This document shows positions 18,948 to 20,735 of a DNA stretch of 64,000 bases, piece by piece. The notes beneath the pieces are model-generated. The model saw nothing but the letters and a program-made list of their open reading frames with translations, did not search any database and had not been told where the DNA came from. The translations under genes and the position numbers were made by a program. Position 1 is the stretch's first letter. Every line of letters begins with the position of its first letter. This stretch comes from Citreicoccus inhibens (GTDB taxonomy: Bacteria > Myxococcota > Myxococcia > Myxococcales > Myxococcaceae), in NCBI RefSeq assembly GCF_019039035.1, contig NZ_JAHNZT010000022.1, positions 1 through 64,000 on the forward strand. The letters are read 5' to 3'.

Positions 18948-19943
18948 TCAGCGGCCCTGGCGCTCGGCTTCCAGTCGCTCGTAGGCGGAGCGCAGGTGGC
19001 GCTCGGTCTGCGCTCGCGCTTCGGGCGTGAGGCCCCGTGCCTTCTCGTCGCGGTTCTCCTCGAAGGGGAGCACGGGGTTCTTCGCGTCCCGTCCCGCGAC
19101 CTCGCGCAGGTGCTGGCGCTCGTCGGCGGTGAGCTTCAAGTCGAACAGCTCCGGCAGGAGGTCCGCCGCGGACGCGTGAAGTTGAGTGAAGTCGACCAGC
19201 CGGGCGGGGGCGTCGCGACGGTGCTGGAAGGCGCGGAGCCCTGCTTCGCAGATGCGGGCCAGCATCCGCGCGCCGTACTCGTCCAGGGACGTCGTGGGCA
19301 TTCCCGCGGCTTCGCGCGGTGCAAGCCCCAGCGCGCCGGGCAGCATGTGCGCGCCTCGATGCCTCGCGTGCGAGGCCATCACCTCCAGCGGCTCCCGATA
19401 GAGGAACACCCAAGGCACGCCGGGGAACGCTCGCTGGAACAGCGGCAGCTCCAGCGCATGCCACGCATCCAGCTTGAGGAACACCGCCTCCTCGTCGGGA
19501 TGGCGCCGCTGCCCGAGCGCCGCGACCACTGCCTGGAGCCAGGTGATTCGCTGCGCGTCCGTGAGGCCGGGCAGCTCGCGGTGCGCGCGCAGCACGGTGT
19601 CCACCGGCCCCGCCTCGGAGAGGACGACATGGCGGGGCAGCGCCGCGAGGAGCTGGGCGAGGAGCGTCGAGCCACATCGGGACATGTGGAACACGAGCCC
19701 GCGCACTGGCAGGCCGGGGCGGATGCGTTGACGCTCGACCAGCGCGTCGATGGACGTCCGGTGTTGGAAGAGCAGGGCGAAGGGATGGCGCAGCCGGTCC
19801 TCGACGGTCTGGTCGAAGAACGGCGCCGTGAAGCGCTCCGGGCCCAGGTGGCACCAGTCCACCTCGAGTCCTCCCGCGTCCCCGTGGACGCGGATGGGGA
19901 CCCAGGACTCGTCGAGCGGTGGCGCGGTGGCCTCCGGGCTCAT
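18948..19943 (-). CDS. Sulfotransferase family protein
   Basis: About 331 residues. The 5'-phosphosulfate loop of PAPS-dependent sulfotransferases is visible as VFHMSRCGSTLLAQLLAAL (about residues 85-104), and the region PWVFLYREPLEVMASHARHR matches the 3'-phosphate-binding strand-helix of the family (YRxPxxVxxS). The start is set at the ATG 19943, which overlaps the Nif11-type gene stop as ATGA; a GTG two codons earlier is possible. It is the last gene of a three-gene operon with an aspartyl beta-hydroxylase and a Nif11-type protein, which suggests sulfation of a hydroxylated product, perhaps peptide-borne. The acceptor is not known. Confidence 0.85.
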   Translation of the reverse strand: MSPEATAPPLDESWVPIRVHGDAGGLEVDWCHLGPERFTAPFFDQTVEDRLRHPFALLFQHRTSIDALVERQRIRPGLPVRGLVFHMSRCGSTLLAQLLAALPRHVVLSEAGPVDTVLRAHRELPGLTDAQRITWLQAVVAALGQRRHPDEEAVFLKLDAWHALELPLFQRAFPGVPWVFLYREPLEVMASHARHRGAHMLPGALGLAPREAAGMPTTSLDEYGARMLARICEAGLRAFQHRRDAPARLVDFTQLHASAADLLPELFDLKLTADERQHLREVAGRDAKNPVLPFEENRDEKARGLTPEARAQTERHLRSAYERLEAERQGR

Positions 19944-20146
19944 ATCCACCGCTCTCGCCAGGTGCGGCGCGCGGCGTCCAGGGCGTCTCTCAGGTCCGAC
20001 TCGGTGAGCGCACAGCCCTGCTCCGCGCTCAGGCGTTGGGCGAGCACGAGGAACGTGGCGAGGTCTGGCGTGGCTTGCAGGGCGCTCTGAAGCGTGGGGT
20101 CTTCCAGGACGCGCGCGCGAAAGCGCTCGAAGGCCTCACGCGACAC
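19940..20146 (-). CDS. Nif11-type small protein between hydroxylase and sulfotransferase
   Basis: A 68-residue protein starting at GTG 20146. It resembles the Nif11 domain of RiPP leader peptides: FRARVLEDPTLQSALQA, then FLVLAQRLSAEQGCALTESD, then LRDALDAARR. It starts 11 bp inside the end of the hydroxylase gene and its stop overlaps the sulfotransferase ATG, so it is coupled on both sides. Unlike classical Nif11 precursors, only about ten residues (RRTWRERWI region) follow the domain, and no Gly-Gly cleavage site is seen. It has no Tyr or Asn; Asp16, 28, 51, 54 and 57 and several Ser/Thr are present. It may be a substrate, a carrier/recognition module or a truncated precursor. Confidence 0.75.
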   Translation of the reverse strand: MSREAFERFRARVLEDPTLQSALQATPDLATFLVLAQRLSAEQGCALTESDLRDALDAARRTWRERWI

Positions 20147-20735
20147 GGAGGCTCTCGGCGCGGGCCTGCTCGAAGATGCCTCGCAGCCAGTCATCCACGA
20201 CGCAGTCGAGCACCAGATGCACGCGGTCCGTGTCGCTCGGGTTGTCCACGCGATGGGGGAGGTTGAGATCCAGGTACCAGCACTCACCGGGGAGCAGGCG
20301 CACGCGCTGCCCCGCGACGAAGAAGGCCACGTCCGGGTGCGTGACGATGGGGACGTGCAGGCGCACCTCGCCATCATCGAAGCCGAGGTTGTAGTCGGTG
20401 TGCTCGCGGATGTGCGCGCCCGCCGCGAGCTTGAGCAGCCGCGCCGAACCAATGGGGCAGGAGAACGCGGCGAGGACGTCCTGGAACGCCGGACAGCTGG
20501 CCAGCAGCGGCGTGTCTTCGTAGCGCTCCAGGCCGGTGGGATCCGGGTAGAGGGCCTGGGCGGAGCCCGCCACCGCGCGCAGGGGCACGCCGCTCCACTC
20601 TCCCTCGTAGTTCATCGTGTTGAAGTGGCGAACCCAGGTCCCCGCGGGGAGGCTCGCGAGGTCCGCCTGGAGCCGAGCCACGTCGAACTGGAACGGCAAG
20701 CGCAAGCGGTCCGGCATCGTGCGCGACGACGACAT
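20136..20735 (-). CDS. Aspartyl/asparaginyl beta-hydroxylase family protein
   Basis: 199 residues of the Asp_Arg_Hydrox (AspH) family, Fe(II)/2-oxoglutarate-dependent oxygenases. The iron-binding pattern is visible: His112 in HIREHTDYN, then RLHVPIVTHP, and His161 in LNLPHRVDN, with Arg171 (TDRVHLVLD) placed to bind 2-oxoglutarate. The ATG at 20735 has AAGGAG nine bases upstream. It is the first gene of a coupled set with a Nif11-type protein and a sulfotransferase and lies 80 bp after the GGDEF-like gene. Hydroxylation of a peptide or amino-acid side chain is the family activity; the actual substrate is inferred to be linked to the two downstream genes. Confidence 0.88.
   Translation of the reverse strand: MSSSRTMPDRLRLPFQFDVARLQADLASLPAGTWVRHFNTMNYEGEWSGVPLRAVAGSAQALYPDPTGLERYEDTPLLASCPAFQDVLAAFSCPIGSARLLKLAAGAHIREHTDYNLGFDDGEVRLHVPIVTHPDVAFFVAGQRVRLLPGECWYLDLNLPHRVDNPSDTDRVHLVLDCVVDDWLRGIFEQARAESLRVA

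Follow-up and report, generated by a model that had tools for sequence, protein, structure and literature searches.

A conserved hydroxylase, Nif11 and sulfotransferase gene trio predicted to modify the C-terminal asparagine of phage-tail-like collar proteins

Given that a small Nif11-domain protein is encoded between an oxygenase and a sulfotransferase in a myxobacterium, the question arises what these three proteins modify together and whether the small protein is the substrate or a part of the machinery. The genes lie in the window, i.e., the whole stretch of 64,000 nucleotides that was analysed, and are arranged as follows:

20136..20735, minus strand: hydroxylase of the Asp_Arg_Hydrox family (Fe(II)/2OG), 199 aa, ATG at 20735, stop included
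19940..20146, minus strand: small protein with a Nif11 domain, 68 aa, from GTG at 20146 to the stop at 19940
18948..19949, minus strand: PAPS sulfotransferase (PF13469-like), 333 aa

They follow each other head to tail in the order hydroxylase, Nif11, sulfotransferase. The 3' end of the hydroxylase gene and the Nif11 frame share 11 nt, and the Nif11 stop overlaps the start region of the sulfotransferase, which begins either with GTG at 19949 or with ATG at 19943, the latter meeting the Nif11 stop at an ATGA junction. The first-pass annotation of this DNA had described three overlapping genes on one strand and a Nif11 protein of 68 residues without Tyr or Asn; the coordinates, the Pfam search and the conserved gene order bear out the former, and the sequence agrees with the latter.

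Both enzymes are kept in 14 genomes besides that of the window within a family-level sample of 76 genomes (window genome included), with sulfotransferase identities of 54-86%, and the Nif11 frame lies between the two enzyme genes in every locus examined of these 14 genomes. A further family relative (G037) harbors a distant hydroxylase-sulfotransferase pair, in which the sulfotransferase is only 31% identical to that of the window. A wider scan for the sulfotransferase, with one genome per species, yielded 71 loci from myxobacteria, Acidobacteria, one Acidimicrobiales bacterium, Verrucomicrobia, alpha-, beta- and gammaproteobacteria and Eremiobacterota, together with single distant matches in Bacteroidota and Phycisphaerae. 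The profiles built in this analysis recognise a Nif11 domain directly upstream of the sulfotransferase or fused to it in 57 of the 71 loci, and a degenerate helical N-terminus is present in several of the remaining 14; loss of the Nif11 frame from relatives that keep both enzymes, which had been named as an argument against a role for the small protein, was therefore not what we observed. The hydroxylase is found within the locus, in either orientation, in 46/71 cases and is unlinked or located in a second locus in eight further genomes (G091, G097, G098, G100, G103, G104, G105 and G119). The search for conserved co-occurrence of the three families, which the annotation had proposed, hence recovered the trio as syntenic in myxobacteria, among them Myxococcus xanthus (L043), and as recurring in at least seven other lineages, Actinobacteria included. 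Since the same order is found in 14 further family genomes and recurs in other phyla, the arrangement is far beyond chance, in line with the earlier claim of a coupled unit.

A search of plasmids returned one distant sulfotransferase match; the hydroxylase-like plasmid matches that were inspected were set aside, as they stand in other contexts. On a Diaphorobacter plasmid (L224:7980-9872) a hydroxylase-sulfotransferase fusion adjoins an IPTL-CTERM protein, and on an Asticcacaulis plasmid (L225:4817-9767) sulfotransferase and hydroxylase genes adjoin a TonB receptor; both are related but separate systems.

Nif11 domains of the TIGR03798 type are leaders of RiPPs, and a Gly-Gly motif followed by a core defines the precursors of this class (Haft et al., 2010; PMC2887384). 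On these grounds the trio could be a RiPP pathway, as the annotation had considered, in which Nif11, as precursor or leader, would bear the modified peptide or recruit it. The window protein has the helical Nif11 domain in common with such precursors (PF07862, 26.6 bits, cut-off 23.8) and touches the TIGR03798 model itself, albeit with 21.4 bits against a cut-off of 32.3. Unlike TIGR03798 precursors, however, it is a single conserved copy, its relatives are fused to an enzyme in many bacteria, and neither it nor any homologue examined contains a Gly-Gly motif with a core. The proposed search for nearby core peptides, covering the surroundings of the trio and the C-terminal tails of the Nif11 homologues, found none, and no RiPP maturase was seen among the nearest neighbours of the window trio, the range of that scan. 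Separate Nif11 homologues stop 5-7 residues past the HMM match, with the exception of L070 (19 residues) and a degenerate extra frame of L106 (80 residues). A conserved Cys, Ser, Tyr or Asn acceptor is missing from the Nif11 homologues, and their single well-conserved Asp is retained even without the hydroxylase, so that Nif11 was rejected as the substrate.

The way in which the domain is encoded points in the same direction. A free-standing Nif11 protein of about 66-82 aa is encoded in 26 loci (from myxobacteria, beta/gammaproteobacteria, acidobacteria and actinobacteria, among others), and in 30 loci, nearly all of them from Alphaproteobacteria, the domain forms the N-terminus of the sulfotransferase polypeptide in one open frame; a 31st locus with a tandem pair (L056) was left out of this count. 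The fused protein of L064 was modelled as one confident chain (pLDDT 92.4) with the Nif11 helices at residues 12-62. Nif11 also persists in genomes without the hydroxylase, a further point against the RiPP reading. Because it lacks Gly-Gly motif, core and acceptor and shares a polypeptide with the sulfotransferase in about 30 loci, Nif11 is here, on the evidence of sequence, an enzyme-associated domain, and this is the firmest conclusion of our analysis. We contend with high confidence that a protein-modifying module with Nif11 as a sulfotransferase subunit replaces the RiPP reading, which is already contradicted by the 30 N-terminal fusions and which we regard as very improbable. Of the earlier proposal that a peptide is hydroxylated and then sulfated, the order of steps is plausible and the RiPP frame is unsupported; between the two roles that had been left for Nif11, substrate or recognition module, the fusions favour recognition or another accessory function. 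A literature search returned nothing on Nif11 together with an Asp hydroxylase.

The assignment of the sulfotransferase depends on its family rather than on the window protein alone. The latter scores 22.8 bits against PF13469 (Sulfotransfer_3), below the cut-off of 27, and gave no useful match as a single query in a PDB sequence search; the homologue of L053 scores 30 bits against the same model, and the family profile matches mycobacterial STF1 (2zq5) with an E value of 1.4e-4. Both nucleotide-binding motifs of a PAPS-dependent sulfotransferase, assigned here from knowledge of the family, are present along with the fold:

19662..19691, minus strand: FHMSRCGSTL, residues 87-96, presumably the 5'-phosphosulfate-binding loop, (nearly) invariant in 35 homologues
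19371..19397, minus strand: REPLEVMAS, presumably the 3'-phosphate-binding R185...S193, both residues invariant in alignment A3

The C-terminal part of the fused L064 homologue resembles STF9 (Z 14.8), TPST1 (14.6) and TPST1/2 (about 14.5). With TPST1/2 and STF1/STF9 the trio enzyme has the sulfotransferase fold (Z 12-15), the PAPS loop and the R...S motif in common, but it is only 13-18% identical to them and carries a Nif11 domain or partner. Tyrosylprotein sulfotransferases sulfate Tyr in an acidic context, whereas the acceptor proposed below for the trio is a C-terminal residue.

The hydroxylase belongs to PF05118 (E 2.6e-16, 60.3 bits, cut-off 22.6), and 15 columns are invariant among 35 homologues (alignment A1), including the following residues, whose roles we take from family knowledge and from the alignment to 4p7w/1e5r:

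20394..20402, minus strand: H112-x-D114, presumed Fe ligands, invariant in alignment A1
20253-20255, minus strand: H161, presumed third Fe ligand, invariant in alignment A1
20223-20225, minus strand: R171, presumed 2OG Arg, invariant in alignment A1

An AF2 model (pLDDT 94.6) has the DSBH fold and matches 7v4m, AspH and L-proline cis-4-hydroxylase at Z about 17; together with the family score, the HxD...H triad and the 2OG Arg, this identifies an Asp_Arg_Hydrox Fe/2OG oxygenase. By fold the enzyme is also near AspH and a nucleoside-antibiotic beta-hydroxylase. The earlier designation as an aspartyl hydroxylase fits the family name, but the closest solved structures by sequence are free L-proline hydroxylases, namely 4p7w (E 6.6e-23) and 1e5r (E 8.7e-13). 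AspH is an EGF-domain hydroxylase with a TPR domain that acts on EGF-like substrates; the window enzyme has 199 aa and no TPR domain, only the catalytic domain of AspH aligns with it, and an assignment as AspH was rejected. Although L-proline cis-4-hydroxylase (4p7w) and AspH (5jqy) have the DSBH fold, the H-x-D...H motif and the Arg in common with the window enzyme, the latter is compact and without the C-terminal part of the proline hydroxylases (~290 aa), and differs from both relatives in being genetically tied to a sulfotransferase.

Candidate substrates emerge from the neighbourhood of the trio. PF07484 collar (tail-fibre-like) proteins are encoded within about 5 kb in 25/71 loci, often three in a row, and are the substrates that we propose; clustering of neighbour genes also revealed a GNAT enzyme in 22/71 and DUF6916 in 20/71 loci. 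Collars are encoded in 47 of 49 sulfotransferase-bearing genomes versus 15 of 142 alphaproteobacteria without a full-length module (Fisher 7e-29, computed over species that are not independent). The sole collar of the window genome (G000:C79:96681, 177 aa, ending in VYPSRN) is located on a separate contig and is unlinked to the trio, which counts against our preferred explanation. In this literature search no post-translational modification was reported for PF07484 collar proteins, and nothing was found on DUF6916.

A comparison of collars covering about 60 genomes reveals that their last residue follows the enzymes. In the alignment, the myxobacterial collars from module-bearing genomes all end in PSRN, while those of relatives without the module mostly end in PSRG, PARG, PNG or PSRS, and contrasts of this kind, with Gly or Ser ends in relatives without the enzymes, are held by three genera (g23, g8 and g16). 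Asn ends without the standard module are found in G055, G037, G016, G039 and G006. G055 is probably a case of recent module loss; its Myxococcus-type locus (L020) has a truncated hydroxylase remnant and neither Nif11 nor sulfotransferase, and its collar still ends in PSRN. With enzyme presence checked genome-wide, at least one Asn-ended collar, usually with PSRN, occurs in 50/50 genomes with both enzymes versus 9/31 with neither, where Gly or Ser ends prevail (p 5e-13), and in 15/15 versus 4/22 for myxobacteria alone (p 5e-7), the genomes in these comparisons being of shared ancestry and not independent. When every alignment column was scanned across all lineages, the C-terminal Asn proved to be the position most strongly linked to the enzymes (p 7.5e-12; next column 9.7e-5). 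An internal residue, N155, ties with it in myxobacteria alone, and in the smaller comparison outside myxobacteria Pro 151 of the trimmed alignment ranks first and the C-terminal Asn second.

Asn-ended collars were predicted in advance for genomes with both enzymes and were found in all 12 that bear collars, only ten of which are new, as G268 and G269 share collar contig coordinates with G041 and G034; L074, also in the prediction set, has no detectable collar. Asn ends occurred in this set even in genomes whose locus showed no hydroxylase, and the contribution of this enzyme is thus not told apart by the test. An independent-pairs test on the myxobacterial collar tree gave two supported contrasts, in the predicted direction or neutral and without significance. 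Two further observations count against the explanation preferred below: the Sphingopyxis-type genomes G108 and G118 combine sulfotransferase and Asn ends with no clear hydroxylase, and in Azospirillum TSH100 a single PSRN end goes together with a distant sulfotransferase and a 2OG oxygenase of another kind. The collars of G085, G111 and G114, which have the sulfotransferase without a clear hydroxylase, are exclusively Ser-ended. In G150, G204 and G260, where the sulfotransferase is distant and the hydroxylase missing, many collars end in Ser and none in Asn. These Ser ends are suggestive, and only suggestive, of a sulfotransferase acting on the last residue, because Ser brings a hydroxyl of its own and Asn would need the hydroxylase to acquire one.

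Based on these associations, we predict, with a probability of roughly 0.5, that the trio modifies the C-terminal Asn of collars by beta-hydroxylation and then O-sulfation. The hydroxylase would oxidise the C-terminal Asn (...PSRN-COOH) of PF07484 collars, most simply to beta-hydroxyasparagine, and the sulfotransferase would add sulfate from PAPS onto the new hydroxyl of that residue. The 68-aa Nif11 protein, neither RiPP precursor nor substrate in this scheme, would correspond to the N-terminal accessory domain of the fused sulfotransferases, detached here, and act as a small subunit that probably docks the substrate. In the window genome this substrate would be the collar on contig C79. Family knowledge suggests the hydroxylase as a natural candidate for a C-terminal Asn, since its relatives include hydroxylases of free amino acids as well as beta-hydroxylases of Asp/Asn; kinship with free-amino-acid enzymes (4p7w) and with AspH would be expected of an enzyme that reads a free C-terminal carboxylate. 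That the collar C-terminal Asn is the target of the module we hold at even odds, and the wider version, in which phage-tail-like surface proteins are sulfated on a hydroxylated C-terminal Asn with the help of a Nif11 subunit and Ser serves as a shortcut where the hydroxylase is absent, is somewhat more tentative. The literature search returned nothing on sulfated hydroxyasparagine in proteins. If the prediction is right, this would be a new protein modification, a function-bearing one, attached to the very common and unexplained PF07484 'tail fiber' proteins; the Nif11 domain would gain a role outside RiPPs, and substrate and exact residue would be named for two orphan enzyme families in at least eight bacterial lineages. 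It would also explain how proteomics may have missed it, as trypsin cuts between R and N and thereby releases the modified residue alone, as a free amino acid.

A less probable alternative is that the enzymes modify another macromolecule of the collar cluster, such as DUF6916, a GNAT-linked protein or an internal collar residue, with the Asn merely marking a collar subfamily that travels along. Neighbour genes are likewise conserved, N155 of myxobacterial collars equals the C-terminus in its link with the enzymes, and in many loci the DUF6916 protein, too, has a conserved Asn as its last residue (YYQAVFN; the genes in question are those of L062, L068, L075, L076, L079 and L086). In beta- and gammaproteobacterial loci with the two enzymes and with Asn-ended collars, however, DUF6916 ends in Gly or Thr, and the DUF6916 protein of L086 ends in Asn although the genome has no hydroxylase; the C-terminal Asn of DUF6916 does not follow the enzymes and was rejected as the target. 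N155 was rejected likewise, as its conservation is confined to the myxobacteria; with all lineages taken together, the C-terminal Asn stands far above the other collar columns. The GNAT enzyme and a 350-aa neighbour were discarded for want of a conserved terminal residue, and we consider a target elsewhere in the cluster unlikely. It is also conceivable, and in our view less likely still, that the substrate is a small molecule or a lipid, e.g., a free amino acid or an ornithine lipid in an LpxO-like chemistry, with an indirect link to collars. Lipid hydroxylases are known among the other PF05118 members, the closest solved hydroxylases use free L-proline, and the NCBIfam LpxO model touches the window hydroxylase at 17 bits, far below its cut-off. 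The lack of the C-terminal portion of the ~290-aa proline hydroxylases argues against such a substrate, which moreover leaves unexplained why collars accompany the enzymes so closely, both genome-wide and as gene neighbours, and why one particular collar residue is associated with them.

Several further features of the collar clusters were noted. L041, whose record is titled 'Comamonas sp. KCTC 72670', is a typical Myxococcus locus with the collar contig coordinates of G041, and this organism name looks wrong. The 350-aa family (L059:6536-7576) has no Pfam match, adjoins the collar/module cluster in beta- and gammaproteobacteria and has orthologues in L058, L063, L065 and L073. Adjacent to the only collar gene of the window genome and divergent from it is a gene for a 738-aa lipoprotein-like protein (L125:7212-9428, on G000:C79) with Collagen (PF01391) and DUF7151 repeats. 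Lasso-peptide-like genes for PqqD, B2 (Transglut_core3), asparagine synthase and HprK-like proteins are present in some alphaproteobacterial collar clusters (L084, L085, L081, L087, L055, L075 and plasmid NZ_CP039640.1, L227), some of which also carry another 2OG oxygenase; no precursor peptide was seen in these clusters, and the genes may serve collar maturation. The Sphingopyxis-type loci L176 and L190 contain arrays of 6-12 collar paralogues ending in SRN or ARN, with the sulfotransferase unlinked, and several of the paralogues in L176 have apparent Sec signal peptides.
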